Of a stretch of 64,000 nucleotides of DNA, positions 32,255-63,984 are shown in pieces (position 1 is the stretch's first letter; each line of letters begins with the position of its first letter). This DNA comes from Dryocola clanedunensis subsp. sulfonylureivorans (GTDB lineage Bacteria; Pseudomonadota; Gammaproteobacteria; Enterobacterales; Enterobacteriaceae), in contig NZ_JAERMU010000010.1 in assembly GCF_016756775.1 (NCBI RefSeq), positions 1-64,000 of the forward strand, given 5' to 3'. The translations under genes and the position numbers were made by a program. The notes under the pieces were generated by a model. The model was not told where the DNA came from. It saw only the letters and a program-made list of their open reading frames with translations, and ran no database searches.

Positions 32255-32265
32255 CTGGAGGAACC

Positions 32266-32574
32266 ATGTCGATTGCAGAAATTCCGCTGAGTGCGGACAA
32301 CCAACTCTTTACCCTTCAGCTGGCGGGCCAGCAGCTTCGCCTGCGGCTGATCTATCGCGATGTGGCGGGCTGGGTGCTGGATATTCTCGACCCGGACGAG
32401 CGGCCGATCGTCAGCGGTATTCCGCTGGTCCCCGGCGTCGATCTGCTGGCCGCCTACGGCTCGCTCGGCTTTTCCGGCGGGCTGTGGGTCGTCTCTGACG
32501 ACGAAACGCAGGAATATCCCAGCAAAACCAACCTGGGCTACGGCAGCCATCTGTACTTTGTGACGACGGATTAG
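32266..32574 (+). CDS. Baseplate plug-like protein
   Basis: 102 aa, beta-rich, with IPLSADNQLFTLQLAGQQLRL at the N-terminus, a pattern I associate with small baseplate plug proteins of compact contractile phages. Position between the Dit-like and hub genes agrees. Confidence 0.55.
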   Translation: MSIAEIPLSADNQLFTLQLAGQQLRLRLIYRDVAGWVLDILDPDERPIVSGIPLVPGVDLLAAYGSLGFSGGLWVVSDDETQEYPSKTNLGYGSHLYFVTTD

Positions 32575-32584
32575 GGGAGATGCA

Positions 32585-33580: not shown

Positions 33581-33622
33581 AACGCTCCCGCTCCGGCGGG
33601 ATTTTTATATCCAGGAGGCAAG

Positions 33623-34306
33623 ATGGCTTTAACCGCAACCACCCTTAGCGGCGAGCTGGCGGATACCTTCGCGGCCAATAACGCCGCCCTGAGTAACGAC
33701 CTGCGCGTCGCGCTACCGGGGATTATTCAGTCCTTCGACCCGGAAACGGTGACCTGTGAAGTCGCCCCGGCGATCAAAGGCGCACAAACCGCCAGCGACG
33801 GCTCCGTCAGCCCGGTGGACTACCCGCTGCTGGTGGATGTCCCGGTGATCTTTCCCCGCGGCGGAGGCTGCACGCTAACCTTCCCGCTGGCCAAAGGCGA
33901 CGAATGTCTGGTGGTCTTTGCCGACCGGGCGATGGATTTCTGGTGGCAGAACGGTGGCATTCAGGAACCGGTGGATGGCCGGCAGCATTCTCTTTCGGAT
34001 GCTTTCGTCCTGCCGGGCCCGCAGTCACAGACAAAAAAAATTGGCGGCATCAGCACCAGCGCCGTGCAGCTACGCAGCGACGACGGCGCGGCATTTGTGG
34101 AACTTAACCCAACCAGCCACGCCATCACGCTCAGCACGACGGGGCCGCTCACCGCCAGCGCCTCGGCCATCGACTTAACCGGCGAGGTGACGATCAGCGG
34201 TAACGTCACCGTCAGCGGCGACGTCAAAGCGGCGGGCATCAGCCTGACCAGCCACCGCCACGGCGGCGTCCAGTCGGGAGGATCAACCACGGGAACACCA
34301 ACATGA
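33623..34306 (+). CDS. Membrane-puncturing spike (Gp138/gpV-like)
   Basis: 227 aa. An N-terminal OB-like domain (LRVALPGIIQSFDPETVTCEV) leads to a repetitive beta-helix (AIDLTGEVTISGNVTVSGDV) and a tip SHRHGG followed by Gly/Ser/Thr, with the His-x-His iron-binding motif seen at the apex of phage spikes. It would be the tip that pierces the target outer membrane. It overlaps the next gene by 4 bases (ATGA). Confidence 0.8.
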   Translation: MALTATTLSGELADTFAANNAALSNDLRVALPGIIQSFDPETVTCEVAPAIKGAQTASDGSVSPVDYPLLVDVPVIFPRGGGCTLTFPLAKGDECLVVFADRAMDFWWQNGGIQEPVDGRQHSLSDAFVLPGPQSQTKKIGGISTSAVQLRSDDGAAFVELNPTSHAITLSTTGPLTASASAIDLTGEVTISGNVTVSGDVKAAGISLTSHRHGGVQSGGSTTGTPT

Positions 34307-34653
34307 GATATCGCAGAGAAAGTAGCAGCGGGGACTACTCGTTTGGTCAGGGGGATAACAACTTTCTGACGGACTCCCCGGAATGCGTCGCCCAGGCGGT
34401 CAACACCCGCCTGCAGCTATGGCGCGGCGAATGGTTTCTCGACACAACACAGGGCACGCCGTACTGGCAGTCCGTGCTGGGTAAAAGGCCGGACAAGGCC
34501 TGGCCGCTGATCCTGCGCGATCGGGTCAGCCAGACGCCGGGCGTCAAATCCGTCCTCAGCGTCGAGACCAGCCAGCAGGCCGGGCGGCGCGTGACCTTCA
34601 ACGCCACCATCGACACCCTCTACGGCACAACTACAGTAACAAGCGAGGCGTAA
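34303..34653 (+). CDS. Baseplate wedge protein (GpW/gp25-like)
   Basis: 116 aa. SFGQGDNNFLTDSPECVAQAVNTRLQLWRGEWFLD is, in outline, the N-terminus of gp25-like wedge proteins. Overlaps with both neighbours indicate coupled translation. Confidence 0.75.
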   Translation: MRYRRESSSGDYSFGQGDNNFLTDSPECVAQAVNTRLQLWRGEWFLDTTQGTPYWQSVLGKRPDKAWPLILRDRVSQTPGVKSVLSVETSQQAGRRVTFNATIDTLYGTTTVTSEA

Positions 34654-35852
34654 TGGCTATTCATCCTGCAACGCTGGGGTTATCGGCAACGATAACGGCC
34701 CAGGGGATCTCCGCGCCTGACTATCAGACCATCCTCAATGCGCTGATGGACCAGTTCAGGCAAATCTACGGCAGCGATGCCTATCTGGAGCCGGACAGCA
34801 AAGACGGCCAGATGATCTCGCTGCTGGCGCTGGCCGTTCACGATGCCAATAACACGGCTATCGCGGTTTATAACGGCTTCTCTCCCGCAACCGGTATGGG
34901 CAACGGGCTGTCCAGCAACGTCAAGATCAACGGCATTGCGCGTAAAAGCGCAACCAGCTCTACCGTCGATCTGCTGCTGGGCGGCACGCCGGGCACCACC
35001 ATCGTCAACGGCAGCGTAAAAGATGCCAATGGCGTTAACTGGCTCCTGCCCGCGTCGGCAGTTATCGGTATTGATAGCACGACGATAGTCACTGCTACCT
35101 GCGCTATTAGCGGGGCAGTAGCGGCACTGGCCGGCACCATCACCACCATCAACACCCCAACACGGGGCTGGACGACGGTCACCAACCCGACGGCAGCAAC
35201 GCCGGGCGTGGCCGCCGAAACGGACGCCGAGCTTCGCGTTCGCCAGGCGCAGAGCGTGGCGCTGCCAGCCTTAACTTCATTCGACGCGCTTGACGGCGCG
35301 CTGGCCAACGTCGCGGGCGTGACGCGCCATAAGCTCTACGAGAACGACAAAGGCAGCGAAGATGAAAACGGCCTGCCGCCGCACTCGCTGTCGGCCATTG
35401 TCGACGGCGGCGACGTGACCGCCATCGCCCAGACGTTGCGCGGTAAAAAAGGGCAGGGCGTCGGCACCTGGGGAACAACGTCGGTCACCGTGCCGGACAA
35501 ATACGGCAATCCGCACGTTATCAGCTTCTCCCGCTCCATCGACGTGCCGGTGTTTGTCACCCTCGAACTTAAACCTTTCAGCGGCTACACCTCGCAGATT
35601 GGCGAGCAGATCAAGCAGGCGGTGGCGGACTATATCAACTCGCTGACCATTGGTGACGACGTCCTGCTGAGCCGCCTCTTTTCACCGGCCAACCTCGGCG
35701 TGGTGAGCGGCGGTAACGCGCGCTACTACGACATCACCAGCCTGGCGATAGGCAAAAGCGCCGAGAGCACGGTGGTGGCGAACATCGATATCGCCTACGA
35801 CGAGTCGGCGTCCTGTACCGCGGAGAACATCACGATCGCGGTGACGCCATGA
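34653..35852 (+). CDS. Baseplate J/gp47-like protein
   Basis: 399 aa with LNALMDQFRQIYGSDAYLEPDS, DGQMISLLALAVHDANNTA and RVRQAQSVA, the pattern of baseplate J proteins that form the wedge. Overlaps the next gene by 4 bases. Confidence 0.88.
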   Translation: MAIHPATLGLSATITAQGISAPDYQTILNALMDQFRQIYGSDAYLEPDSKDGQMISLLALAVHDANNTAIAVYNGFSPATGMGNGLSSNVKINGIARKSATSSTVDLLLGGTPGTTIVNGSVKDANGVNWLLPASAVIGIDSTTIVTATCAISGAVAALAGTITTINTPTRGWTTVTNPTAATPGVAAETDAELRVRQAQSVALPALTSFDALDGALANVAGVTRHKLYENDKGSEDENGLPPHSLSAIVDGGDVTAIAQTLRGKKGQGVGTWGTTSVTVPDKYGNPHVISFSRSIDVPVFVTLELKPFSGYTSQIGEQIKQAVADYINSLTIGDDVLLSRLFSPANLGVVSGGNARYYDITSLAIGKSAESTVVANIDIAYDESASCTAENITIAVTP

Positions 35853-36529
35853 GCAGATACACGGATCTCATCACCAGCTATCACGCCGGCAAACCGCTGT
35901 TCTTCGACCATATCGACCTGACGACCAGCCCGTTCACCGCCGTCTCTGACACGACCGGCTCACTGATCTCCGCCTTCGATATCGACAGCGCCGATGGGGT
36001 GCAGCTCGATATTCTTGGGCAGTGGATTGGCCGCAGCCGCTACGTCACAGAGCCGATTTCCGGCATCTACTTCGGCTGGGATCAGGAAGGGCTGGGCTAC
36101 GACCAGGGCGTCTGGCAGGGGCCGTACGACCCTGATACGGGCTATACGGCGCTCAGCGATGAAACCTATCGCATCATCCTGAAGGCGAAAATCGCCATCA
36201 ACACCTGGGACGGACAGAACGACTCGCTGCCGGCGATCCTCGATGCGGCAACCGCCGGCTCCGGCCTGCGGATGCAAATCGTCGATAACCAGGACATGAC
36301 GATCTCGGTCTGGGTCTTCCCGGAAACCGATATTGCTGACATGTCGCTCGAGCTAATCGCGGCGATAAAACAGGGATATTTAACGATAAAAGCCGCAGGC
36401 GTGTGGGCTGGCGACATCCAGACGCCCTCGGTTGAAACACCCTCAGAGGGAAGCCGCTTCTTCGGCTTCGATATCACTAACGACTACATCGCCGGTCTGG
36501 ACGACGGCGCCTGGGAGAGCAAACTCTAA
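35849..36529 (+). CDS. Tail protein linking baseplate to fibre (DUF2612-like)
   Basis: 226 aa. VQLDILGQWIGRSRYV and GYTALSDETYRIILKAKIAIN are typical of DUF2612, the counterpart of gpI in P2-like tails. It is directly followed by the fibre gene (TAATG overlap), where its partner should be. Confidence 0.75.
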   Translation: MSRYTDLITSYHAGKPLFFDHIDLTTSPFTAVSDTTGSLISAFDIDSADGVQLDILGQWIGRSRYVTEPISGIYFGWDQEGLGYDQGVWQGPYDPDTGYTALSDETYRIILKAKIAINTWDGQNDSLPAILDAATAGSGLRMQIVDNQDMTISVWVFPETDIADMSLELIAAIKQGYLTIKAAGVWAGDIQTPSVETPSEGSRFFGFDITNDYIAGLDDGAWESKL

Positions 36530-37491
36530 TGGCTACAAATCAATTTAAACCTTTTGCAACCGGCCCCGCGGCAAACGTCACCCCGCAGGAAGACTGGGAA
36601 GCGCTGCCCGCGCTGCTGAGCGGCTTCACCTCCGGTAAAGCCAGCAGCGCGCAGGTCAACAAAGCGCTGCGCCAGACCTCGTTTATCGCCTCCGCGCTGG
36701 CAGAGTTCGTCAGCGAGAAAAGCGGCGAGGACGTACTGGACGACGGCGACGTAGCAGGCTTTATCGCCAAAATGACCAGCGGCTTCGCCGCCGAATACCT
36801 GAGCCGCGAAAACCCGTTCGGCGATATCAAAGCAGATGGCAGCGCCGCAGTCTCCACGGCTCTCGCAAACCTTGGTTTGGGGGAAGGGTCGCCAATTATT
36901 GGTTCGCCGTTTGCCTGGCCGAGCACGAAAATGCCAAATGAAGTTTTCTCCTCTATGGCAGGAATGACCTTTTTAAAAATGAACGGAGCGACTTTTAGTG
37001 CGACAACTTATCCAAAGTTGGCACTCCTTTATCCTGATTTGAAACTACCGGATTTACGCGGTGAGTTTATCCGCGGTTGGGATGATGGTAGGGGGGTTGA
37101 TACCGGTCGAGTATTGCTTAGTGTTCAAGGGTGTGCATTTGAAGACCATGCGTTAACTTTACCTACCAATCAGGGGTACGCGGGAATAGAAAAAGGAAGC
37201 ACTGAAAACGATATTTATGCAGCATTTGCTGACAGCATGCGATATATCGGAACGGAAAATAGCAGTGGCCAATGGACTGATTACTCCCAACCAAGAATAT
37301 ATATTCGTGCTGATGGTAAGCCTCTTGGTAATAATAATGGCTTAGCGAGTATGCCGGATGCTCAATATGCCTCCCTACGCACTTACAGAGCAAGTACTGG
37401 TTGGAGTAATCCTGGGGGGAATATGCCCAAAACAGCAGCGGAAACGAGAGGCAGAAACATTGCATTAAATTATTTAGTTAGAGCAAGTTAA
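36529..37491 (+). CDS. Tail fibre, expressed version with switchable C-terminus
   Basis: 320 aa. Residues 1-114 are encoded outside the invertible segment and probably attach to the baseplate. From Leu115, at the crossover core, the variable part begins: a collar-like domain (YPDLKLPDLRGEFIRGWDDGRG) and a C-terminal receptor-binding tip ending ETRGRNIALNYLVRAS. The DNA changes sharply at the crossover: by hand count 70% GC in 36601-36660 and 38% in 36961-37020. No tail-fibre assembly chaperone gene follows. Confidence 0.88.
   Translation: MATNQFKPFATGPAANVTPQEDWEALPALLSGFTSGKASSAQVNKALRQTSFIASALAEFVSEKSGEDVLDDGDVAGFIAKMTSGFAAEYLSRENPFGDIKADGSAAVSTALANLGLGEGSPIIGSPFAWPSTKMPNEVFSSMAGMTFLKMNGATFSATTYPKLALLYPDLKLPDLRGEFIRGWDDGRGVDTGRVLLSVQGCAFEDHALTLPTNQGYAGIEKGSTENDIYAAFADSMRYIGTENSSGQWTDYSQPRIYIRADGKPLGNNNGLASMPDAQYASLRTYRASTGWSNPGGNMPKTAAETRGRNIALNYLVRAS
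36860..36885 (+). repeat. Left DNA-inversion crossover site (gix/cix-like)
   Basis: 26-bp site with imperfect dyad symmetry around a TT core (36872-36873), arms CGCAAACC / GGTTTGGG. A 21-bp stretch, AAACCTTGG... (36867-36887), is repeated in inverse orientation at 38046-38066. Confidence 0.85.
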
Positions 37492-51415: not shown

Positions 51416-52783
51416 TCAGACCACCAATTCCTTCATCACCTGCGTAAACGCGCAGCCGATCTCTTCATCTTTACTGTGCCGTCCTTCCTGAATCACCCAC
51501 TGCCCGCCGGTCATGACCGCCCGAATCGGGTTGCCGGCACAGGCGAAGATCCAGCGGTTTAGCAGCATCTGGTCTTGTGCGCTGGCGATAAACGGATCCC
51601 GGTCGTCCAGCACCAGAAGGTCCGCACGATAACCCACCTCTAGCCTACCGATGTTCTGCCCCAGAGCCTTTGCGCCGCCGCTCAGCGCTCCGTGATAAAG
51701 CACGTTGCCAATATTCGCCTCCGCCGGCGTATACAGCCGATTGCGGCGCTGCGCCTGCAATCGCTGTCCGTACTCGAACCAGCGTAAATCTTCCGTGACG
51801 CTGACGCTGATGTGGCTGTCGGAGCCAATTCCCCAGCGGCCCTGATGGGCCAGATACTCTACGCCCGGGAAGATGCCATCACCCAGGTTGGCTTCTGTCG
51901 TCAGGCAGAGCCCTGCGACGGCACCGGAGGCGGCTATTTTCTGCGTCTCCTGCGGGGTCAAATGCGTGGCGTGGATCAGACACCAGCGCTCGTCCACGGG
52001 GACATGGTTGTAAAGCCAGTCAACCGGACGCTCGCCGGACCAGGCCTGGCAATCCTCAACCTCTTTAAGCTGTTCGGCAATGTGAATATGGATCGGCTGC
52101 TGGCCAGGGTGGCAGTTCAGAACGGTGTCGATTTGCTGCGGCGTCACGGCCCGCAGTGAATGGAAGCACAGCCCGGTGCGCTGCATCGGCTCACGGGACA
52201 GACGGGCGGTGAGCGTCTCATACAGCGCCAGATAGCCGTCGGTATCGTTGATAAAACGGCGCTGCCCGGCGCTCGGCGTTTGCCCGCCAAATCCGGCATG
52301 GCTGTAGAGAACGGGCAGCAGGGTCAGGCCAATGCCCGCCGTGCTCGCCGCGCTGGATATCCGCAGCGCCAGCTCAGCGCGTTCGCCATACGGCGCGCCG
52401 GTATTGCTGTGGTGCAGATAGTGGAATTCAGCGACGGAGGTATAGCCCGCTTTCAGCATTTCGATATACAGATAGCTGGCGATGGTTTCTAACTGTTCAG
52501 GCGAGATTTTATCCACCAGTCGGTACATCAGATCCCGCCAGGTCCAGAAGCTGTCAGAGGGATTTCCCGCCACCTCAGTGAGGCCGGCCATCGCCCGCTG
52601 AAAGGCATGAGAATGCAGGTTGGGCATGCCCGGCACTACCACGCCGTTGATGAGGGTGGCCTGCGGCGCGGGTTTGGTTTCCTTCGCCAGGGCCGTGATG
52701 ATTCCCTCATCGGACACGGTTATGCTGACATTGTTTGCCCAGCCATCAGGCAAGAGCGCTTTCTTTGCGAACCAGACCGTCAT
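51416..52783 (-). CDS. hutF: Formimidoylglutamate deiminase
   Basis: 455 aa amidohydrolase-family enzyme that converts N-formimidoyl-L-glutamate to N-formyl-L-glutamate plus ammonia in the five-step histidine pathway. Metal ligands are visible in NLHSHAFQRAMAG (His57, His59), IHIHIAEQ and SDSHISVS. Its presence points to the Pseudomonas-type route, which needs an N-formylglutamate deformylase rather than formimidoylglutamase. Divergent from hutC across a HutC-type operator. Confidence 0.9.
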   Translation of the reverse strand: MTVWFAKKALLPDGWANNVSITVSDEGIITALAKETKPAPQATLINGVVVPGMPNLHSHAFQRAMAGLTEVAGNPSDSFWTWRDLMYRLVDKISPEQLETIASYLYIEMLKAGYTSVAEFHYLHHSNTGAPYGERAELALRISSAASTAGIGLTLLPVLYSHAGFGGQTPSAGQRRFINDTDGYLALYETLTARLSREPMQRTGLCFHSLRAVTPQQIDTVLNCHPGQQPIHIHIAEQLKEVEDCQAWSGERPVDWLYNHVPVDERWCLIHATHLTPQETQKIAASGAVAGLCLTTEANLGDGIFPGVEYLAHQGRWGIGSDSHISVSVTEDLRWFEYGQRLQAQRRNRLYTPAEANIGNVLYHGALSGGAKALGQNIGRLEVGYRADLLVLDDRDPFIASAQDQMLLNRWIFACAGNPIRAVMTGGQWVIQEGRHSKDEEIGCAFTQVMKELVV

Positions 52784-52810
52784 GTTATCACCTTGTATTC
52801 AGCTTGTTGT

Positions 52811-52840
52811 AAATGTATATACATGTACATAGATATACAT
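52811..52840. promoter_or_regulatory. HutC-type operator cluster between hutF and hutC
   Basis: TGTATATACA (52814-52823, perfect palindrome in ATGTATATACAT), then TGTACA and TATACA at helical spacing. It resembles the TGTATATACA core recognised by HutC-type GntR regulators and is shared with the sites before hutU. Confidence 0.65.
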
Positions 52841-52891
52841 CTAACAGGCCATAGAGTAAACTTTCTACGTCATCAGATTGAGGAAGCATTC

Positions 52892-53653
52892 ATGGCGCAA
52901 AACGACCTGACTAACCCGGTTTCAAAGGATGCACTGCAAGAGCCGCCGGCCCCTTTTTATGAAAGGGTGAAGGCGATGATCAAAACCAAGATCCACAGCG
53001 GTGCCTGGCCGGTTAACTATCGTGTCCCTTCCGAAAGTGAGCTGGTGAGCCAGTTTGGCTACAGCCGGATGACGGTCAACCGTGCGCTGCGTGAGCTGAC
53101 GGCGGATGGGCTTCTGGTGCGTATGCAGGGCGTGGGGACTTTTGTGGCGGAGATCCGCGGTCAGTCAGCGCTGCTGGAAATCAACAATATTGCCGATGAG
53201 ATCGCCAACCGGGGGCATCGTCACCACGCCAGAGTCTTTAGTCTGACTGAAATAGAAGCCGATGCGCAGCAGGCGCTTAGCTTTGGCATGCAGCAGGGCT
53301 GCGCGCTCTACCATTCGCTGATTTGCCATTATGAAAATGGCGTGCCGGTGATGCTCGAAGATCGCCTGGTGAACACCCTGGTGGTGCCGGACTATTTGCA
53401 GCAGGACTTTACCCGCATCACGCCCAATGCCTATCTGTCATCTATTGCGCCCATTGTTGAAGGCGAGCACGTTATCGAGGCGGTGAACGTCAGCCGTACG
53501 GAGTGTGCTTACCTGGAAATAGAAGAGCATACCCCCTGCCTGATGGTGAACCGACGGACCTGGACTGGCCGTCAGGATAAGAAAATTGTTACCAGCGTGC
53601 GCCTGGTCTATCCGGGGTCGCGCTACCGTCTTGAAGGAAGCATGCGCAAATGA
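52892..53653 (+). CDS. hutC: Histidine utilisation repressor HutC
   Basis: 253 aa. N-terminal GntR winged helix (about 22-90: YRVPSESELVSQFGYSRMTVNRALRELTADGLLVRMQGVGTFV in outline) and C-terminal UTRA effector domain that in HutC proteins binds urocanate. The start at 52892 has GAGGAAGC upstream. It should repress the hut promoters and its own, with release by urocanate. Its stop overlaps hutD. Confidence 0.9.
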   Translation: MAQNDLTNPVSKDALQEPPAPFYERVKAMIKTKIHSGAWPVNYRVPSESELVSQFGYSRMTVNRALRELTADGLLVRMQGVGTFVAEIRGQSALLEINNIADEIANRGHRHHARVFSLTEIEADAQQALSFGMQQGCALYHSLICHYENGVPVMLEDRLVNTLVVPDYLQQDFTRITPNAYLSSIAPIVEGEHVIEAVNVSRTECAYLEIEEHTPCLMVNRRTWTGRQDKKIVTSVRLVYPGSRYRLEGSMRK

Positions 53654-54210
53654 TCCGCCTGCTCCCTGCAAAAAAACACATCGAGATGCCCTGGAAGAAT
53701 GGCCTGGGGGTCACGCGTGAAGTCAGCCGTTTTCCCGAAGCCGGAGAGTACGACTGGCGGATTTCGCTGGCGACCATTCGTGATTCTGGCCCGTTTTCGA
53801 GTTTTCCCGGCTACCTGCGCAGTATCAGCGTGCTGGAAGGGGAAGGGATGTACCTGACGATAGAGGCGGAGCGCAGCCCGCTGATACCTCCGTTTCAGGC
53901 GCTGAATTTTAACGGCGAAAGCAGCGTTTCCTGCGAGATAGTCGGCGGCCCGCTGCTGGACTTTAACGTGATTTACCGTGAGGCGGCCATGCAGGCCACG
54001 GTGACCTGGTGCCGCTCTGCGGAGTGGGACTATCAGGGCGGATTACGCGTGCTGTTCAACGCAGGCTCTGCCGTGCGGGTTCAGATCGCGGGGCAGGATT
54101 ATCGGCTGGATCGCTATGACAGCCTGCTGGTGGACGAGCCGGGAACGCTGGACGTCAACAGCGGATCCCCGGAAGCACGTCTTGCCTGCATTACTCTCTT
54201 GAATAAATAA
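53650..54210 (+). CDS. hutD: HutD family protein
   Basis: 186 aa cupin-like protein regularly found in hut clusters; in Pseudomonas it is proposed to limit hut activity when urocanate is high. Begins MIRLLPAKKHIEMPWKNGLG, the HutD hallmark. ATGA overlap with hutC. Confidence 0.88.
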   Translation: MIRLLPAKKHIEMPWKNGLGVTREVSRFPEAGEYDWRISLATIRDSGPFSSFPGYLRSISVLEGEGMYLTIEAERSPLIPPFQALNFNGESSVSCEIVGGPLLDFNVIYREAAMQATVTWCRSAEWDYQGGLRVLFNAGSAVRVQIAGQDYRLDRYDSLLVDEPGTLDVNSGSPEARLACITLLNK

Positions 54211-54249: not shown

Positions 54250-55779
54250 TTACTGTTGACTACACAATTCCTGCAGCATCTCGCTTAATTCCCCCTCAAC
54301 AATCAGAGAGCGCAGCGCATGCATGTCAGGGTACAGCGCGGTGTCTTTTTCCCGGAAGGGAACCGCCCGGCGAACCATGGCAAGCGTAGCCTCGCTTCCC
54401 ACCGCGGCCCGTAGCGGACGGTGGAATTCCAGCGCCTGACAGGCGCACAGCAGCTCAATCGCCACAATATCTACGGCGTTCTCTACGGCTTTCAGAGCCT
54501 GACGGGCCGCCGACACTCCCATGCTGACATGATCTTCCTGGCCCGCGCAGGTAGGCACCGTGTGGATACTCGCCGGGCCTGCCAGGCTGCGATTTTCACC
54601 CGCCAGCGCCGCGGCGACATAAGGCGGGATCATCATCCCGGAACAGCCGCTGCCCGGCGTAACCAGGAAGGCCGGCAGCCCGCTAAGATGCACATTGGTG
54701 ATGCGGTCGGAGCGGGCCTGGGATGCGCTACTCAGCTGCGCGATGGCGACGGCCAGCGAATCCAGCGCCAGCGCGACGGGCGCGCCGTGGCCGTTGCCGC
54801 CCGGCAGCACGGTAAGCCGCTCTTCTTCTATCAGAAACAGCGGATTATCCGTCACCGAATTTAGCTCAATGGTCATCACCTGGCGGCAGTGGGCCAGCTG
54901 GTCACGCACCGCGCCGTGGATCTGGGGAATGCAGCGTAAGCTCAGGGCATCCTGAATTCGGTGTTCACGATAGCGTTCCAGTATCTCGCTTCCGCTCAGC
55001 AGCAGCCGCAGATTTTTCGCCGTTTCCTGCTGGCCGGGATGCGGACGCAGGGCGTGCAGACGAGCATCGTAGCCACGGGTGTTGCCCTTCAGCGCCTCCA
55101 GACACATGCCGCCTGCCATATCGGCCACCGGCAGCAGCCGCTGGAAATCTGCTACCGCCAGGCAGCCCAGAGCGGTAATTTCATAGGTGCCGCCCACCAG
55201 CGCGTGGCCTTCTCGGGGGCCTGGGAGATACGGCGGGATTTCCGCCAGCGCCAGTGCCCGATCCGAGGGCAGCAGCTCCCCCCGATACCAGCATTTTCCT
55301 TCACCAAAGACCGACAGGCCGATATGGGCTGTCGCAATCAGATAGCCGACCGATCCCCCTGATGGCGACCAGGGCGTGACCTGTTTATTCAGCATATCGG
55401 CCATGCGCAGCGCCAGCGCCGGAGTGACGCCGCTGTAGCCCTGAAGCAGCGATTTCAGCGTCACCGCCATCGTGGCCCGCACTTCACGCATCGTCAGAGC
55501 AGCACCGACGCCGCAGGCGTGGCTGCGCAGCATGTTGAGCTGAGTATCCGTTATCTGCCCGGCGGAGAGCCGGGTGGTAACCAGATCGCCCACCCCCGTC
55601 GTCAGCCCATATATAACCTGCTCTTCCTGAATGGCCCGCCGGATGTACTGGCTGACGACAGCCATGTTCTCCAGCGCGTGCGGCTCCAGAAAAACCTCTG
55701 CCCCGTCCGCAATACGCACAATCTCTTCAATTGTGCACGGCCCGCCACCTAAGGTGATACAGCCCAGGTCAGTTGTCAT
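54250..55779 (-). CDS. HutH-like aromatic amino acid lyase without the MIO triad
   Basis: 509 aa, the usual length of histidine ammonia-lyase. Family landmarks are present: catalytic Tyr57 in YGLTTGVGDL, Arg281 in SLRCIPQIHGA, TDNPLFL and QEDHVSMG. At the cofactor position, canonical HutH reads GSVG-ASG-DLAPLAH; here it is GSVG-YLIATAH (residues 142-152), so the Ala-Ser-Gly that cyclises to the MIO electrophile is deleted. It cannot use the normal HAL mechanism. By family precedent (ergothionase, from memory), MIO-less members eliminate trimethylamine from betaine substrates. It lies 9 bases after a betaine-type ABC transporter on the same strand. Substrate is therefore inferred to be a trimethylated histidine. 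Confidence 0.8.
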   Translation of the reverse strand: MTTDLGCITLGGGPCTIEEIVRIADGAEVFLEPHALENMAVVSQYIRRAIQEEQVIYGLTTGVGDLVTTRLSAGQITDTQLNMLRSHACGVGAALTMREVRATMAVTLKSLLQGYSGVTPALALRMADMLNKQVTPWSPSGGSVGYLIATAHIGLSVFGEGKCWYRGELLPSDRALALAEIPPYLPGPREGHALVGGTYEITALGCLAVADFQRLLPVADMAGGMCLEALKGNTRGYDARLHALRPHPGQQETAKNLRLLLSGSEILERYREHRIQDALSLRCIPQIHGAVRDQLAHCRQVMTIELNSVTDNPLFLIEEERLTVLPGGNGHGAPVALALDSLAVAIAQLSSASQARSDRITNVHLSGLPAFLVTPGSGCSGMMIPPYVAAALAGENRSLAGPASIHTVPTCAGQEDHVSMGVSAARQALKAVENAVDIVAIELLCACQALEFHRPLRAAVGSEATLAMVRRAVPFREKDTALYPDMHALRSLIVEGELSEMLQELCSQQ

Positions 55780-55788
55780 TGTCGGTCC

Positions 55789-56661
55789 TTATTTCGCAAA
55801 GCCGTGTTTCAGCAGCCACTGGTGGGCCACCTCATCAACGCCGACAAACTCTGCCATTTGCTCGTTCATGTCGATCAGGTCGTCGGTGGTTAACTGGGCG
55901 GAAACTTTATTCACAATCGCCGCTGCGCTGCCGTCCAGCGAACCGTCTGCGACGAGGGGAACGATATTCTGTGCCGCAAACAGATGCTTAGTATCTTCCA
56001 GCACGACAAGGCGATCTTTTTTGATTGCCGGGGTGGTGGAAAGCAGGTCGGCCACCTGCACCTGGTTGTTTTTCATGGCGCTCAGGGTCAGCGGCCCGCC
56101 CACATCCAGCACTTTAAAACGCTTAAAGTTCAGGCCATAAACTTCACGTAGCCCGGATATGCCCTCATGGCGAGTTTTCCACTCTGCCGGGCCGCCGAGC
56201 ACCAGCTGACCGGCAATGGGCTTCAGATCTTCGATGGTTTTCAGCTTGTACTTCGCGGCGGTCTTTTGCGTCACCGCCAGCACGTCGATATCTTCTGCCG
56301 GCGAGATATCCAGCATTTTGATTTTCGCCGGCAGCTTCGTCGCCAGCGCGGCGGCAACTTCTTTACTGCCGTGCGCCTCGTTTTTGGCGTCCAGGTAGCT
56401 CAGCATCGCGCCGCTGTATTCCGGAATAAAGGTGACAGAACCGTCCAGCAGCGCCGGGATATAAACTTCGCGGCTGCCGATATTGAGTTTTTTCTCCACC
56501 GGGATGTTTTGCGCTTCGAGCGCCCCTGCGTAAATCGTGCCGAGCAGCTGGCTTTCGGGGAAGTCGGCGGAGCCAACGATGATTTTTGATGCAGCCCAGA
56601 CGGAGGAGGTTACCGAAAGAAGCAGCGCGGAGCAGAGCGTCAGAGCATATTTTTTCATCAT
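55789..56661 (-). CDS. Periplasmic quaternary-amine binding protein (OpuC/OsmF-like)
   Basis: 290 aa with a signal peptide ending near SVWA. The OpuAC-type fold is visible in KIIVGSADFPESQLLGTIYAGAL and FIPEYSGAMLSYLD. The family binds glycine betaine, choline and related trimethylammonium compounds, and members are also known to bind ergothioneine. Last transporter gene of the operon, next to the MIO-less lyase. The start may be either of two adjacent ATG codons. Confidence 0.85.
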   Translation of the reverse strand: MMKKYALTLCSALLLSVTSSVWAASKIIVGSADFPESQLLGTIYAGALEAQNIPVEKKLNIGSREVYIPALLDGSVTFIPEYSGAMLSYLDAKNEAHGSKEVAAALATKLPAKIKMLDISPAEDIDVLAVTQKTAAKYKLKTIEDLKPIAGQLVLGGPAEWKTRHEGISGLREVYGLNFKRFKVLDVGGPLTLSAMKNNQVQVADLLSTTPAIKKDRLVVLEDTKHLFAAQNIVPLVADGSLDGSAAAIVNKVSAQLTTDDLIDMNEQMAEFVGVDEVAHQWLLKHGFAK

Positions 56662-56692
56662 CTTGAGATCCTTTTAAGAGCGGTCAGGGGTA

Positions 56693-57373
56693 TCAGTGTT
56701 TTACGCGCCGGGTGATACCGGGCGAGACGACCATTTTCTGCGAGAAGGAGAAGAAGCCGTCGATCAGCAGCGCCAGCAGCGCCACCAGGGTGGCTCCCGC
56801 CGCCATCTGGCTGAAATCGTTGGCGGCGCGTCCATCAATAATCAGGCGGCCCAGCCCGCCCAGAGAGACATAGGCGGCAATGGTGGCCGTGGAAACAATC
56901 TGTAGCGTGGCGCTGCGCACGCCGGACAGAATCAGCGGAAGCGCACACGGCAGCTCTACCTGAGCGAGGATCTGCAGCCGCGTCAGGCCCATGCCTTTGG
57001 CTGCGTCATGAACGGAAGGATCGACCGAACGGATACCGGCATGAACCCCCAGCGCAATAGGCGGCAGCGCCAGCGCCACCAGCACCAGAATGCAGGGCAC
57101 GATAAACGCCATGTCAGATTCAAAAGAGCCGGCCAGTAGAATCACCAGCAGGATGATTAAACCGAACGAGGGCAGGGAGCGTAGCGCATTGGTCGTACCA
57201 ATTAAGAATGCCTCCCCCTTGCCCGTATGGCCGGTGTAGCAGCCGACGGGAAAGGCGATGGCGAACGCAATAACCAGGGCGACGGCGCTGTAGCCGATAT
57301 GCTGCAACAGCAAAGGAAAAATACCGTCATCCCCAAACCAGTGGGTGGGATCCAGGAACCAGCTAATCATCAT
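56693..57373 (-). CDS. ABC transporter permease, betaine/choline type
   Basis: 226 aa with about six membrane segments and the EAA-like loop AAKGMGLTRLQILAQVELPCALPLILSGVR. One of two permeases of the OpuC-like importer. It overlaps the preceding permease stop by one codon. Confidence 0.88.
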   Translation of the reverse strand: MMISWFLDPTHWFGDDGIFPLLLQHIGYSAVALVIAFAIAFPVGCYTGHTGKGEAFLIGTTNALRSLPSFGLIILLVILLAGSFESDMAFIVPCILVLVALALPPIALGVHAGIRSVDPSVHDAAKGMGLTRLQILAQVELPCALPLILSGVRSATLQIVSTATIAAYVSLGGLGRLIIDGRAANDFSQMAAGATLVALLALLIDGFFSFSQKMVVSPGITRRVKH

Positions 57374-58017
57374 TATCCTCTCAGGGGTTGCCAGTGGCTT
57401 AATTGACGGGTGGCGTGAACCACCAGGCGATCCAGCAGCAGCGCGAGGAGGATGCTCAGCACGATCCCGGCGATGATGGGCGTCAGGAATTGCAGCTGGA
57501 AGCCCTGGGTAAACAGGGAGCCGAGCTGCGGCGCGCCGATAAGCGCAGCCACGGAAACAATACTGACGTTCGACACCACGGCGACGCGCAGGCCAGAGCC
57601 AATCACCGGCACGGCCAGCGGCAGCTCGACCTGAAGAAACTGTTGCAGGGGCTTGTAGCCCTGGGCGGCGGCGGACTGGCGGGTGTCGGTAGAGACGGAA
57701 TCCAGCCCGTCACAGACCGTGCGGACCAGCAGCGCGAAGCTGTAAACCGTCAGCGCGACGACCACGTTGATCGGATCCAGAATCTGGGTATTCAGCAGCG
57801 GCGGCAGCAGCACAAACAGCGCCAGCGAGGGAATGGTGTAGAGCAAACCAAACAGGTTAATGATCACGGCCTTGAGCCTTGGGAGGCTGTTCACTCCCCA
57901 TCCGACGGGGATCGCCAGGATAAGCCCGATGACTACCGGCACGATGGAGAGGTAACAGTGCCAGAGCAGCAGGCTGAAGATTTTGTCACTTTGCGCCCAG
58001 AGCCAGTCAAATCTCAT
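57373..58017 (-). CDS. ABC transporter permease, betaine/choline type
   Basis: 214 aa, about five to six membrane segments, with the loop SAAAQGYKPLQQFLQVELPLAVPVIGSGLRVAVV in outline. Overlaps the ATPase gene stop by 4 bases, indicating tight coupling. Confidence 0.88.
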   Translation of the reverse strand: MRFDWLWAQSDKIFSLLLWHCYLSIVPVVIGLILAIPVGWGVNSLPRLKAVIINLFGLLYTIPSLALFVLLPPLLNTQILDPINVVVALTVYSFALLVRTVCDGLDSVSTDTRQSAAAQGYKPLQQFLQVELPLAVPVIGSGLRVAVVSNVSIVSVAALIGAPQLGSLFTQGFQLQFLTPIIAGIVLSILLALLLDRLVVHATRQLSHWQPLRG

Positions 58018-59111
58018 CGTGCCTCCTGACGCGTTGATTTACACATCTCAACGACCTGTTCCAGAAGAACCGAACCGACAGGTGCCAGCTCTTTATCGAC
58101 GATAATGGCCCGATGGTTCGGCGAGCTAAGGGCGGCATCCAGCAAATGGCGCAGCGGGCCGCCCTGCTGGTGGAAGGTCGCCCCCAGATTAATGTTATCG
58201 AGGGTGATGGAGGACACCTGCTGATGGGTATCGAACCAGCCAAAGGCTTTACCGCCCCGGGTCACCAGCAGCCAGCGGTCGGTCGCTTTGCGTCTGGCTT
58301 CTTCCAGCGTGCAGTCCAGCTCCGCGCAGGGTTCGTTTTGCAGGGCGGAAGCGGCGTCCGTCGTATGAAAACTAAGTTTGCGGTAGCCTCTGTCACGGCC
58401 AATAAAGTCCGCCACAAAATCGTTCTGGGGGGTATTTAACAGCTCGCCGGGCGTGGCGAGCTGCGCCAGCTTGCCGCCGGGCCTGAGGACGGCGACGAGA
58501 TCGCCAAGCTTCATGGCTTCATCGATATCGTGAGTGACCATGATAATGGTTTTACTCACCTCTTTTTGAATACGCAGAAACTCTTCCTGTAGCTGTTCGC
58601 GCACCACGGGATCGACCGCGCTAAAGGGTTCGTCCATCAGCATAAATTCCGGATCTGCCGCCAGCGCGCGGGCGACGCCGACGCGCTGCTGCTGGCCGCC
58701 AGAAAGCTGCCAGGGAAAGCGCGTGGCGATGATTGGGTCCAGCCCGACCACTTCCAGCAGTTCACCGGCTCTGACACGCGCCTTGCTCTTGCTGGCACCG
58801 TTCAGGATCGCGGTAGTGGCGATATTATCGATGATGTTTTTGTGAGGGAATAAACCTGCATTTTGAATGACGTAGCCGATGCGGCGACGCAAATGCACGG
58901 TATCCATCTGGTCGGTGGCTTCGCCATTAAGCAGTATTTGGCCTCCCGAAGGTTCGACCAGGCGGTTGATCATCCGCAACGAGGTGGTTTTCCCGCAGCC
59001 GGATGGGCCGACAAATACCGTAATTTTGCCTCCTGGCGCTACCAGGCTGAGGCCGTCTACGACTAGCGAGCCGTTTCCGTAGTGCTTGGTCACATTCTGG
59101 AAGGTAATCAT
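58014..59111 (-). CDS. ABC transporter ATP-binding protein, betaine/choline type
   Basis: 365 aa. Walker A GPSGCGKTTS, Q-loop YVIQNAGLFPHKNI, signature LSGGQQQRVGVARAL, Walker B LMDEPFSAVD, H-loop VTHDIDEAM, then a C-terminal CBS-like regulatory region as in ProV/OpuCA. The start at 59111 has AGAGGTGTGAAG upstream and matches the family N-terminus (MITFQNVTKHYG). First gene of the leftward operon ATPase-permease-permease-binding protein-lyase, divergent from hutU. Confidence 0.92.
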   Translation of the reverse strand: MITFQNVTKHYGNGSLVVDGLSLVAPGGKITVFVGPSGCGKTTSLRMINRLVEPSGGQILLNGEATDQMDTVHLRRRIGYVIQNAGLFPHKNIIDNIATTAILNGASKSKARVRAGELLEVVGLDPIIATRFPWQLSGGQQQRVGVARALAADPEFMLMDEPFSAVDPVVREQLQEEFLRIQKEVSKTIIMVTHDIDEAMKLGDLVAVLRPGGKLAQLATPGELLNTPQNDFVADFIGRDRGYRKLSFHTTDAASALQNEPCAELDCTLEEARRKATDRWLLVTRGGKAFGWFDTHQQVSSITLDNINLGATFHQQGGPLRHLLDAALSSPNHRAIIVDKELAPVGSVLLEQVVEMCKSTRQEAR

Positions 59112-59202: not shown

Positions 59203-59216
59203 CTTGTATGTACAAG
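59203..59216. promoter_or_regulatory. HutC-type operator of the transporter-lyase operon
   Basis: CTTGTATGTACAAG, a nearly perfect palindrome, about 90 bases before the ATPase start codon. ATGTACAG at 59194-59201 may be a half site. Confidence 0.7.
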
Positions 59217-59550: not shown

Positions 59551-59564
59551 CATGTATATACAAG
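59551..59564. promoter_or_regulatory. HutC-type operator of hutU
   Basis: CATGTATATACAAG contains TGTATATACA (59553-59562), as between hutF and hutC. It would cover the start point of transcription. Confidence 0.7.
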
Positions 59565-59634: not shown

Positions 59635-61311
59635 ATGAGTAAGCAAACAACCCGTTTTCGCGATGTTGAAATCAGGGCACCCCGCGGTACCGAGCTGAAC
59701 GCCAAAAGCTGGCTCACTGAAGCCCCATTACGGATGCTGATGAATAATCTGGATCCCGATGTCGCTGAAAACCCGAAAGAACTGGTGGTCTACGGCGGCA
59801 TTGGCCGGGCGGCCCGCAACTGGGAGTGCTACGACAAAATCGTCGAGACGCTGAAACAGCTTAACGACGATGAAACGTTGCTGATCCAGTCGGGCAAACC
59901 GGTGGGCGTGTTCAGAACCCACAGCTTTGCACCACGCGTACTCATCGCTAACTCGAACCTGGTTCCCCACTGGGCGAACTGGGAGCATTTCAACGAGCTG
60001 GATGCTAAAGGTCTGGCAATGTATGGCCAGATGACCGCCGGATCGTGGATCTATATTGGCAGCCAGGGCATCGTGCAGGGCACCTACGAGACCTTCGTGG
60101 AAGCAGGACGCCAGCACTATAACGGGACGCTGCGCGGGCGCTGGGTGCTGACCGCCGGTCTGGGCGGGATGGGCGGTGCGCAGCCGCTGGCCGCGACCCT
60201 TGCAGGAGCGTGCTCGCTGAACATTGAGTGCCAGCAGTCGCGTATCGATTTCCGTCTGCGTACCCGCTACGTGGATGAGCAGGCGAAAGATCTGGACGAC
60301 GCGTTAGCGCGTATCGCCCGCTATACGGCGCAAGGCAAGGCCGTCTCTATTGCGCTGCACGGCAACGCGGCCGAAATTTTACCTGAGCTTGTGAAGCGTG
60401 GCGTTCGCCCGGATATGGTGACCGACCAGACCAGCGCGCACGATCCGCTTAACGGCTACCTGCCGCTGGGCATGAGCTGGGAAGCGTACCGCGAACGCGC
60501 TCAAAGCCAGCCTGCAGAAACGATCAAAGCGGCTAAAGCCTCCATGGCCGAACATGTTAAAGCCATGCTCGCCTTCCAGCAGCAGGGGGTCCCGACCTTT
60601 GATTACGGCAACAATATCCGCCAGATGGCCAAAGAGATGGGGGTGGAAAACGCCTTTGATTTCCCAGGCTTCGTTCCCGCCTATATTCGCCCGCTGTTCT
60701 GCCGCGGTATTGGCCCGTTCCGCTGGGTGGCGCTCTCCGGTGACGCAGAAGATATCTACCGTACCGACGCCAAAGTCAAAGAGCTGATCCCCGACGATGA
60801 GCATCTTCACCACTGGCTGGATATGGCCCGCGAGCGCATCAGCTTCCAGGGCTTACCGGCCCGTATCTGCTGGGTGGGGCTGGGGCAGCGCGCGCGTCTG
60901 GGGCTGGCCTTTAACGAAATGGTGCGCAGCGGTGAAGTCTCTGCCCCTATTGTTATCGGTCGCGACCATCTTGATTCTGGCTCCGTTGCCAGCCCTAACC
61001 GTGAAACCGAGGCGATGCAGGACGGCTCGGACGCGGTTTCCGACTGGCCGCTGCTGAACGCGTTGCTGAATACCGCCAGCGGCGCGACCTGGGTATCCCT
61101 GCACCACGGCGGCGGCGTGGGCATGGGCTTCTCCCAGCACTCCGGGGTGGTCATCGTCTGCGACGGCACCGACGAAGCCGCCGAGCGTATCGCCCGGGTT
61201 CTGGGCAACGATCCGGCAACGGGCGTGATGCGCCATGCGGATGCAGGCTACGACATTGCGATTGAATGCGCCAGGGAACAAGGGCTCAACCTGCCAATGA
61301 TGACGGATTAA
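59635..61311 (+). CDS. hutU: Urocanate hydratase
   Basis: Converts urocanate to 4-imidazolone-5-propionate using tightly bound NAD. 558 aa. Very close to the Pseudomonas enzyme from memory, with [39 protein letters not shown] (NAD site) and [15 protein letters not shown] (active-site Cys). The start at 59635 has AGAAGGGA upstream; the ATG at 59602 would add 11 unrelated residues. Because it looks canonical, urocanate rather than thiourocanate is the likely substrate. Confidence 0.94.
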
Positions 61312-61364
61312 CTCTTCCGGTGAGGCGGGCTTCGGCCCCCTCACATCTACCCGGAGCGCCTGTT

Positions 61365-62765
61365 ATGAACAATAAAAACAACACAACATTTATCGAAACC
61401 CGTTCCATTGAGCCGATCCCCGATAGCGAGCGGCACGGCAGCATCTTCAGCCAGTTCACGCTCTGGCTGGGGGCAAATCTGCAAATCACCGCTATTGTCA
61501 CCGGCGCGCTGGCTATCGTCTTTGGTGGCGATGTCTTCTGGTCACTGGCGGGTCTGGCGCTGGGCCAGGTCGCAGGCGGCATCGTGATGGCATTACACGC
61601 AGCCCAGGGGCCGAAGCTTGGGATACCGCAGATGATCAGCAGCCGGGTGCAGTTCGGCGTTTACGGTGCCTGCGTGCCGATTCTGCTGGTCTGCCTGATG
61701 TATATCGGCTTTATCGCCACCGGCGCGGTGCTCTCCGGCCAGGCGATTTCTGCCGTTTTTCATACCTCAGAAACCAGCGGCATTGTGCTCTTTGCCTTCA
61801 CCACGCTGGTTATCGCCTTTGTGGGCTATCGCCTTATTCACCTGCTGGGCAAGCTCGCCAGCGTCGTGGGCGTTATCGCGTTTATCTACCTGTTCTGGAA
61901 AATCAGTGCGGCGCATCCCATTGGTGAACTGCTGGGCAACGCGGCTTTTAGCTGGCGCACGTTTTTAACCGCCGCCGGGCTTGCCGCCTCCTGGCAGATC
62001 ACCTTCGGCCCGTACGTTGCGGATTACTCGCGCTATCTGCCGCGCAATACGTCCAGCAGAAAGGTCTTTTTTGCAGTAGGCAGCGGATCGGTGATTGGCG
62101 CGCAGGTGGCGATGACGGTTGGCGTGCTGGCAGCGGCGATCTCCCAGGGAAAACTGCTGGGCCATGAAGTGGACTTTATCGTGACGTTAGGGGGAACCGG
62201 CGCGGTTGCCACGCTGCTTTATCTGAGCGTCGCTTTTGGCAAGCTGACCATTAATACCCTTAACGCGTACGGCAGCCTGATGTGTCTGAGCACGGTTTAC
62301 AGCTGCGGGAAGCAGCAGATTCGCATTAGCCCACGGGTGCGGCTGCTGGTGCTGGCTGCAATTATTGCTCTCGCCACGGGGATTGCGATTATTGGCCAGC
62401 ACTCGTTCCTGGCCGCGTTCAAATCATTCCTGCTGTTCCTGCTAACCTTCTTTACGCCGTGGAGCGCGGTCAACCTGGTGGATTACTACTTCTTTAACCA
62501 CCAGGAGATTGATGTTGCTGCCCTGAACGATCCGGCTGGCAAATACCGTGCCTGGAACGCAACGGGACTGGGCGTTTATATCCTCGGCGTGGCGGTGCAG
62601 ACGCCGTTTATCGATAGCGGTTTTTATAGCGGCCCGTTCGTCAGCCTGCTCGGCGGCATCGATATCTCGTGGCTTATCGGCCTGGCGCTGCCGGCCGCGC
62701 TCTATTACATCCTGCGTAAAGTGCAGTCCACCCACACCGCGGCAGGTACCGCTCTGAGCCGCTAA
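61365..62765 (+). CDS. NCS1-family permease in hut cluster
   Basis: 466 aa, 12 membrane segments, cytosine/purine/allantoin permease family ([44 protein letters not shown]). Some hut clusters carry an NCS1 transporter for urocanate (HutT type), which fits the position between hutU and hutI. Start at 61365 with CCGGAG upstream. Confidence 0.82.
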
Positions 62766-62775
62766 CGAGGTGCAT

Positions 62776-63984
62776 ATGTATACCCTTTGGCATCATTGCC
62801 AGATAGCCACCATGGAAGGTGGCAAGTACCACCTGCTGACAGATGGCGCAATGCTGACCCACAATGCCACATTGTTCTGGGTTGGCGATCGCCGGGATCT
62901 CCCGGACGTCAGCGTCGCCCGTGCTGTGGATTTAGAGGGGCGAGTCGTCACACCAGGGCTGGTGGATTGCCACAGCCATGCGGTGTTTGGCGGCGATCGC
63001 GCACGTGAATTTGAAATGCGTCTCAACGGGGCGAGCTACGCGGAAATCGCCGCGGCTGGCGGCGGCATTGCCAGCACGGTGAACGCCACGCGTCAGGCCA
63101 GTGAAAGCGAACTCTTTGCGAGCGCAAAACGACGCGTCAGCGCCTTGTGCAAAGATGGTGTCACCACGCTTGAGATTAAATCTGGCTACGGCCTGGATTT
63201 GGCCAACGAGCGCAAAATGCTGCGGGTGATCCGCAGGCTGGGCGAAGATCTTCCGCTTTCAATCCTTAGCACCTGCCTGGCGGCCCACGCGGTGCCGGTG
63301 GAGTATCAGGGGCGGGCGGATGAGTGGATAAGCTATATCTGTGAAACGCTGCTGCCTGAACTTCATGCTGAAGGGCTGGTGGGTGCGGTGGATGCGTTTT
63401 GCGAGCACCTGGCCTTTTCGCCCGCCCAGGTGGAGCAAGTTTTCCAGACAGCAAAGCGGCTGGGATTACCGGTAAAACTTCATGCAGAGCAGCTGTCGCT
63501 CCAGCACGGCGCGGCGCTGGCCGCACGCTTCCAGGCTTTGTCTGCCGATCATCTGGAGTATCTGTGTGAGGAAGATATTGTCGAGATGGCCCGTCAGGGG
63601 ACGGTAGCCGTCCTGCTGCCCGGCGCTTACTACTTCCTGCGCGAGAAACAGCTGCCGCCGGTGGAGCTGCTGCGTCAGCACAGCGTCCCGATTGCTCTGG
63701 CCAGTGACTTAAACCCTGGGACGTCGCCGGTGCTCTCCCTGCGTCTGATGATGAACATGGCCTGCACGCTGTTCCGCATGACGCCGGAAGAGGCGCTGGC
63801 GGCGGTGACCCTCAACGGGGCGAAAGCGCTGGGGCTGGACGACAAGTGCGGCTCGCTGGCGGCAGGTAAGGAAGCCAGTTTTGTCGCGTGGGATGTTCAT
63901 CACCCGGCGGAGTTGAGCTACTGGCTGGGTGGGACGCTCTCAAAACAGGTTATCTATAAAGGAGAGGAGGTTTATCGTGATTAA
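62776..63984 (+). CDS. hutI: Imidazolonepropionase
   Basis: Hydrolyses 4-imidazolone-5-propionate to N-formimidoyl-L-glutamate. 402 aa amidohydrolase with metal ligands in [13 protein letters not shown] (His66, His68), further histidines in LHAEQLS and the [10 protein letters not shown] motif. ATG at 62776 with AACGAGG 5 bases upstream; a GTG two codons before is possible. It starts 10 bases after the permease. Confidence 0.93.

Follow-up and report, generated by a model that had tools for sequence, protein, structure and literature searches.

What is a histidase paralogue doing without the residues from which histidases form their cofactor, and why does it stand beside a betaine-type importer in a histidine utilization (hut) locus? 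The question is raised by five genes at positions 54250-59111 of a 64,000-nucleotide stretch of Dryocola clanedunensis subsp. sulfonylureivorans (positions 1 to 64,000 of contig NZ_JAERMU010000010.1, assembly GCF_016756775.1), which as a whole is called the window here. All five are open reading frames (ORFs) in the same direction, four encoding an ATP-binding cassette (ABC) importer and one a lyase of the histidine ammonia-lyase (HAL) family. A sequence-only reading of this DNA had noted that the lyase lacks the Ala-Ser-Gly that forms 4-methylideneimidazole-5-one (MIO) and had proposed a pathway for degrading a histidine betaine. That observation is sound and larger than was stated, as it concerns a clade-wide MIO-less lyase with an importer, apparently in the Hut regulon and also on Klebsiella plasmids. 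The best explanation, to which we give a probability of roughly 0.58, is that the five genes encode a HutC-regulated importer and an MIO-independent, urocanate-forming C-N lyase for a histidine derivative; the control by HutC, the reaction, its product and its substrate are all things that we infer.

Loss of the MIO motif and purifying selection on the lyase

The lyase gene (54250-55779, minus strand) encodes 509 amino acids. Residues 142 to 152 of the protein read GSVGYLIATAH, compared with GSVG-ASG-DLAPLAH in HutH; the loop has three residues fewer, and Ala-Ser-Gly is gone, as had been reported. Against the HutH model TIGR01225 the protein scored 491 bits, below the curated NCBIfam cut-off of 539.15 bits. 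Tyr57, TDNPLFL and QEDHVSMG are present as previously listed, the conserved arginine being residue 282 rather than 281. The predicted structural model has the HAL fold (mean predicted local distance difference test score, pLDDT, of 89), with template modelling (TM) scores of 0.89 to 0.91 to HutH of Pseudomonas putida and of an archaeon and 0.87 to 6s7j, the ergothionase of Treponema denticola.

A scan of genome contigs identified 35 loci, comprising 16 enterobacterial orthologues (70 to 85% identity; the 16 relatives below) and 19 more distant loci. GSVGYLIATAH was found in all 16 orthologue loci, one of which (L020) is a broken copy with nine stops within the matched stretch, and Ala-Ser-Gly was found in 18 of the 19 distant ones, the remaining locus (L035) not covering the site. 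Among 24 distinct proteins of the clade that holds the window lyase (clade A), 23 carry the identical motif, the exception being GSVGYLVATSH from Rhizobium (L103); an additional Rhizobium copy (L146) reads GSVGYLIATSH. Across the window sequence and 15 relatives, the broken L020 being left out, the 11 motif codons varied synonymously only, with no amino acid change, and the median ratio of nonsynonymous to synonymous substitution rates (dN/dS) was 0.08 (0.04 to 0.15), taken from the pairs whose dS was unsaturated (93 of 120). The MIO-less lyase is under purifying selection. A pseudogene is ruled out by this ratio together with the purely synonymous change in the motif codons, and the earlier view that the gene is not a dead copy holds. 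A local sequencing error at about position 55344, which the sequence-only reading had named as part of one way in which it could be wrong, is likewise ruled out, by the recurrence of the motif in the relatives and clade A proteins and by its codon variation. These results show the loss of a self-made cofactor kept across whole clades.

Gene order and predicted HutC operators

Across the 16 relatives the genes keep one order, ATPase, two permeases, binding protein and lyase (in pieces in L020), with hutU, hutI and hutG on one flank and hutD, hutC and hutF on the other; hutU lies beside the ABC genes in all 16 loci. The available text of PMC12977541 gives TGTA-N2-TACA as the sequence bound by HutC. 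Exactly three such sites occur in the window against 0.19 expected, and none of 100 shuffles reached three. One predicted operator, TGTATGTACA at 59205-59214, lies upstream of the ABC-lyase genes; the others, both TGTATATACA, lie upstream of hutU (59553-59562) and between hutF and hutC (52814-52823). Predicted sites were identified before the ABC-lyase genes in all 16 relatives (78 to 148 bp ahead of the matched ATPase start), before hutU in 15 (L016 being without) and between hutF and hutC in all 16. Over these loci, 31 sites fell within the 8,955 bp of hutU-ATPase gaps and 19 within the remaining 335,146 bp, 16 of the latter being the hutF/hutC sites. L098 and L099, where the stretch read contains no hut gene, each have a sole site in 19.9 kb, and it precedes the ATPase gene. 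As judged from these predicted operators, the importer-lyase row appears to belong to the Hut regulon.

All nine genomes examined in which the clade A lyase is intact (the window's own and eight others; a tenth, G396, has a broken clade A copy and stands outside this count) have at least one ordinary HutH with Ala-Ser-Gly elsewhere. The clade A lyase is not the ordinary histidase. Each of the nine genomes has a single hutU, which in four lies no more than ~5 kb from the clade A lyase.

Phylogeny and active site of the lyase

The 134 HAL-family rows collected reduced to 117 distinct ones. Trees were built from 65 of these, from 61 without four long rows, and from 62 of the 65 together with three PDB rows (L107, L111 and L036 left out). 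The window lyase falls outside the HutH clade in the trees. With the motif columns removed, clade A was recovered at 100/100, and clade A, a second MIO-less set (clade B, described below) and the ergothionase type were each well supported; with aminomutases as outgroup, the three grouped apart from HutH at 94/88. Topology tests allowed both clade A with ergothionase (approximately unbiased test, p-AU 0.749) and clade A with clade B (p-AU 0.346). A single MIO loss ancestral to all three is suggested, long branches being present, and the clade A lyase is probably kin of ergothionase; the comparison with ergothionases and HutH that had been named as a check thus set the lyase apart from HutH and allowed more than one placement relative to ergothionase.

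Active-site positions are given here in what we take to be the numbering of P. putida HutH. Tyr53, Gly60, His83, Gln277, Arg283, Met382 and Glu414 are retained in all 31 clade A and B tree rows. Position 280 is Leu throughout clade A (14/14), clade B (17/17) and the ergothionase type (3/3), and Tyr in 27 of 27 HutH rows and in all four other MIO enzymes. At position 329, Phe in HutH, Gly is found in 14 of 14 clade A rows and Pro in 16 of 17 clade B rows; position 195, Asn in HutH, is Ser or Gly in clade A and Asn in all 17 rows of clade B. Met382, kept in clade A, is replaced by Gly, Ala or Leu in three ergothionase-type rows. Such a site would fit an unmodified imidazole, a carboxylate and an unchanged catalytic base, and judged by residue sizes rather than from a liganded structure, it would leave more room at the amine.

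Clade B and other MIO-less lyases

Clade B, a second set of MIO-less paralogues with GSVGYLTHMAH or a close variant, accounts for 32 of the 117 distinct HAL rows and occurs in Enterobacteriaceae, other Gammaproteobacteria and Alphaproteobacteria (loci L091-L097, L101, L109, L112-L122, L132 and L139-L145). At least one hut gene was found within 20 kb in 14 of the 15 clade B loci read, L142 having none. L139 and L141 carry, in this order, hutU, an NCS1 permease gene, a HutX-like gene, permease and ATPase genes, the clade B lyase gene and a HutH-type gene (with Ala-Ser-Gly in L141). From this gene order, rather than from the SBW25 sequence, HutH1 of Pseudomonas appears to be a clade B protein. 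The clade B binding proteins in Enterobacteriaceae and Rhizobium belong to another family (NocT-like) than that of the window. Two of them had nopaline-binding (219 bits) and octopine-binding (199 bits) proteins as their best solved matches and scored 112 and 118 bits against the histidine-binding protein 1hpb. The full published nopaline/octopine signature was found in none of eight clade B binding proteins, L109 having the OccJ Ser. An opine-type substrate for clade B was rejected on this ground and is retained only within one of the rival explanations below.

The T. denticola ergothionase reads SSIGE-GDITTLSH, one residue shorter than HutH, and relatives from Sinorhizobium meliloti and Rhizobium leguminosarum do likewise. 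An R. leguminosarum plasmid (L104:2868-14711) carries an ergothionase-like lyase, hutC, a betaine binding protein, a CoA-transferase, a short-chain dehydrogenase/reductase, MaoC and a putative sulfate exporter. At L145:3578-6045, an ergothionase-like lyase and a cage-keeping binding protein adjoin a hut operon that holds a clade B lyase. A Haloarcula plasmid (L111:4138-13284) carries a betaine-type ABC importer, an MIO-less HAL protein reading GSADN-ACELAN, two hutU and a sulfurtransferase, possibly an archaeal ergothioneine-type catabolism. A thiourocanate hydratase search for ergothionase clusters placed none of 369 genomes above the cut-off.

Distribution of the importer and carriage on plasmids

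In the window, the importer is encoded on the minus strand by a ProV-like ATPase gene (58014-59111, with an alternative longer GTG start at 59246), two permease genes (57373-58017 and 56693-57373, named after an annotated relative) and a periplasmic binding-protein gene of the ProX/OsmF/EgtU family (55789-56661). The binding protein has matches to EgtUC and to OpuC/ProX proteins and by sequence belongs to the betaine/ergothioneine-binding family (quaternary ammonium compound, QAC, subcluster F-III).

The window-type importer goes with three kinds of MIO-less lyase. Besides the pairing with clade A, its neighbor in Aureimonas sp. AU20 is a hut operon that includes a clade B lyase, and in Arthrobacter sp. 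StoSoilB13 hutU lies next to it together with an MIO-less lyase of a third kind (GGIGT-ADLPAL, ~30% identity, Tyr280 kept as judged by eye). An Arthrobacter plasmid stretch (L150:9437-16327) shows the window-type importer, hutU and the MIO-less HAL lyase with GGIGT-ADLPAL. Binding proteins of 42 to 52% identity were found with no lyase in the stretch read in Agrobacterium (beside a flavin-dependent oxidoreductase) and Nonomuraea; importer and MIO-less lyase co-occur often, not always. The enterobacterial scope of the original proposal was too narrow: Rhizobium also has the lyase type, and Aureimonas and Arthrobacter have the importer type.

Lyase matches of 80 to 90% identity were identified on 163 of 72,556 plasmid records, and among the matches listed, all 11 such rows were from Klebsiella (the best 60 of 896 matches inspected, 10 stretches opened). 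The binding-protein search gave 164 records at 80 to 90% identity, with 163 from Klebsiella among all 249 matches (the best 60 of the 249 inspected, five stretches opened). Plasmid pINF019_1, typed as conjugative, carries the complete module, and the module was found in two of 5426 Escherichia coli genomes, plasmid-borne in both. Only a partial lyase is present on two of the 60 plasmids listed, importer genes not being annotated in one that was opened. A Raoultella plasmid (L108:5425-6333) has a lyase remnant and no annotated importer genes, the hut genes being retained.

Proposed reaction

According to the best explanation, the importer would take up a histidine derivative, its alpha-nitrogen probably substituted; the lyase would eliminate the substituted amine to give urocanate; and the flanking HutU, HutI, HutF and HutG would degrade urocanate to glutamate and formate. 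With HutH and ergothionase as a guide, the imidazole would be held by His87 and Glu415 and the carboxylate by Arg282, Tyr57 would take the beta-proton, and the amine would depart without MIO because the shortened loop and the changes Tyr280Leu, Phe329Gly and Asn195Ser/Gly would free space for a leaving group with more bulk than ammonia. The sequence-only reading had envisaged import of a modified histidine, its conversion to urocanate and the Hut route onward. Gene order and predicted HutC operators tie the lyase to the importer and to the urocanate-to-glutamate route, and to that extent the scheme survives; its hercynine form is spoken against by the loss of most of the binding-protein cage, considered next.

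Observations weighing against the proposal

Several observations count against an imported histidine derivative feeding the Hut route, some of them against hercynine in particular. A looser operator pattern, the first one tried, was barely over chance (three sites against 1.11 expected, equaled by seven of 100 shuffles), and a TGTA-N2-TACA search found no site in L100, L103, L146, L147 or L150. The 94/88 support for the branch with ergothionase is below the star threshold, and the end branches are long. hutU lies on another contig, beside the ordinary HutH, in five of the nine genomes. Behind the lyase gene, seven of the 16 relatives (L008-L013 and L017) have genes for a class III CoA-transferase, a 3-hydroxyacyl-CoA dehydrogenase and an enoyl-CoA hydratase, and the same trio follows it in L100, L103 and L146 (directly behind the lyase at L013:11496-14379, L100:11197-14068 and L146:14520-17403). 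In the last three loci the lyase product may have another fate, because no hutU was found in the stretches read.

A CoA-transferase match also follows the lyase in L066, L067 and L069 (4.5-kb stretches), with a 70-residue piece in L098 and a short hydratase piece in L015. The trio was not found behind the lyase in L006, L007, L014-L016, L018-L020, L037 and L099, and the window has no ORF of the trio behind its lyase. The ergothionase-like lyase of R. leguminosarum has an analogous set (CoA-transferase, short-chain dehydrogenase and MaoC). One possible role of these CoA enzymes is the activation and hydration of an acrylate, for example urocanate, as a second product fate; another is processing of the leaving group.

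The binding protein adds to the points against hercynine. In the available text of PMC9732360, F293, Y341, Y419 and Y443 of EgtUC surround the quaternary amine of ergothioneine, with N339 at the base, K242, T296 and R379 at the carboxylate, and E375 and T275 at the imidazole. The four cage positions correspond to Tyr82, Asp126, Leu207 and Gln231 in the window protein, leaving one of four aromatic and an Asp in place of a cage Tyr. N339 corresponds to Asp124, T296 to Ala85, R379 to Arg164, E375 to Glu160, T275 to Arg64 and Gly244 to Phe34, and K242 is matched to Ser31 or to Ala32 by different alignments; one imidazole contact and one carboxylate contact of EgtUC are retained. The claim of a betaine-class transporter stands for the family of the binding protein and fails for most of its trimethylammonium cage. 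Such a pocket would suit an N-H amine better than trimethylammonium; the predicted model of the protein (mean pLDDT 69) was not good enough for an analysis of the pocket. The binding proteins beside the ergothionase-like lyases (L104 and L145) and the MIO-less lyase of L111 retain Asn-x-Tyr and the Tyr at 443. Across ten clade B loci searched, all eight NocT-like proteins have Asp at the alpha-ammonium-binding position of the lysine/arginine/ornithine-binding (LAO) protein.

Candidate substrates and rival explanations

Both binding-protein families would point to an amine with hydrogen-bond donors, against hercynine, and the lyase site to the departure of something larger than ammonia. Binding proteins and lyase alike would be satisfied by a secondary or tertiary amine; among natural compounds of this sort, hercynine is the best known. 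Both hercynine and ergothioneine are histidine betaines that occur in soil and diet. As the substrate, hercynine with trimethylamine leaving is the single most likely candidate, a tentative choice that the binding protein partly contradicts; some other N-substituted histidine is a less likely one. The substrate may also be one that has yet to be recognized as a nutrient, because two unrelated binding-protein families place Asp at the amine.

The special case of the best explanation in which the genes form a hercynine importer and a hercynine trimethylamine-lyase is possible and on balance doubtful. Its strengths are the probable ergothionase kinship with Tyr280Leu in common, amine-site residues smaller than in HutH, an importer of the betaine/ergothioneine-binding family by sequence, and a canonical HutU, because of which the product would be unsubstituted urocanate; the largely missing cage of the binding protein and the Asp at the LAO alpha-ammonium site in the NocT-like proteins of clade B tell against it. 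If hercynine is the substrate, Klebsiella plasmids would be a testable source of trimethylamine.

It is rather unlikely that the lyase acts on an N-substituted histidine retaining an N-H (mono- or dimethylhistidine, or an opine-like N-carboxyalkyl histidine) and expels the substituted amine from it. Argininosuccinate and ethylenediaminedisuccinate (EDDS) lyases expel a substituted amine without MIO, and such a substrate would agree with Asp124 and Asp126 near the amine and Arg64 near the imidazole of the binding protein, with the best matches of two clade B binding proteins and with the amine site of the lyase. The absence of the full nopaline/octopine signature from the eight clade B binding proteins (L109 having the OccJ Ser only) and the unproven chemistry count against it, and we know of no such histidine that is a common nutrient.

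A slow MIO-less histidase, or a redundant or regulatory HutH copy with an importer bringing histidine, is quite unlikely. HutXWV beside HutH1 of Pseudomonas fluorescens, by gene order a clade B protein, is described in histidine uptake in the available text of PMC8871633, and the predicted HutC sites and a pocket compatible with a free amino acid would accord with this; opposed to it are the ordinary HutH in all nine genomes and the strict conservation of the MIO-less loop. An ergothionase that makes thiourocanate and trimethylamine from ergothioneine, the alternative that the sequence-only reading had allowed, shares the fold (TM 0.87 to 6s7j) and the MIO loss and is very improbable, given 25% identity in the 6s7j structure alignment, a different deletion pattern, the retained Met382, a sole hutU match in the genome scoring 697 and 719 bits against thiourocanate hydratase cut-offs of 930 and 880, and the loss of EgtU residues (Phe34 at Gly244; Ser31 or Ala32 at Lys242).

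More broadly, we suggest with some reserve that proteobacterial HutH paralogues hide two MIO-free, non-histidase clades (A, and B apparently including Pseudomonas HutH1), an unrecognized branch of the Hut regulon that would make urocanate from N-substituted histidine, each clade with its own importer and clade A on Klebsiella plasmids, some of them conjugative. If true, some genes that carry the annotation hutH do not encode histidases, and the Hut regulon has a new point of entry. It would also explain a published puzzle, as HutH1 of SBW25 is presented in the available text of PMC8871633 as a histidase that is not required on histidine.

The surrounding hut locus

The two hut genes next door that had been called canonical are so by score: hutU (urocanate hydratase; 59635-61311, plus strand), the single match in the genome, reached 1023 bits (cut-off 375), and hutI (imidazolonepropionase; 62770-63984, plus strand) reached 485 bits (cut-off 298). 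Between them lies an NCS1-family permease gene (61362-62765, plus strand), a candidate urocanate transporter that was not found in this position at several relatives; hutG begins just past the window end. On the lyase side of the row (51416-54210) are hutF (formimidoylglutamate deiminase; 51416-52783, minus strand), hutC (the repressor gene; 52892-53653, plus strand, starting at the ATG of MAQNDLTNP) and hutD (53650-54210, plus strand), the last two named after an annotated relative. The locus covers all steps of the five-step Hut route except the ordinary HutH, which lies on another contig (G000 contig 8, L003:5863-9811) adjoining a second hutF and hutD. As the one hutU match of the genome is located here, the window locus seems to be needed for histidine breakdown. 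Elsewhere in the window, a run of ORFs at 30204-37491 resembles phage tail and baseplate genes by eye and is possibly a prophage.

Comparison with known systems

Several HutH paralogues under HutC were already noted in five proteobacterial groups in a comparative study (PMC5343134), the available text of which does not mention paralogues that lack MIO or may not be histidases. No report of hercynine breakdown to urocanate was found among the papers listed in searches of open-licence PubMed Central. The window lyase is like HutH (TIGR01225) in its fold, its Tyr/His/Gln/Arg/Glu active-site set and its place in a hut locus, and unlike it in lacking Ala-Ser-Gly, in Tyr280Leu and Phe329Gly, in its 491-bit score below the cut-off and in its separate clade. 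With the T. denticola ergothionase (PDB 6s7j) it shares an MIO-less HAL fold, Tyr280Leu and a probable common MIO-less branch; the ergothionase differs in a one-residue deletion where the window lyase has three, in the loss of Met382 and in sequence (25% identity). The importer resembles EgtU in its binding-protein family and in retaining the equivalents of Glu375 and Arg379, whereas Y341, Y419, Y443, Lys242, Thr275 and Gly244, as numbered in the available text of PMC9732360, are replaced. The HutH1-HutXWV system of P. fluorescens SBW25, as described in the available text of PMC8871633, differs in its lyase clade (as judged from gene order) and its HutX-type importer; it has in common with the window an importer and an extra HutH in a hut operon, and its order, hutU-hutTu-hutXWV-hutH1-hutH, is that of L139 and L141.

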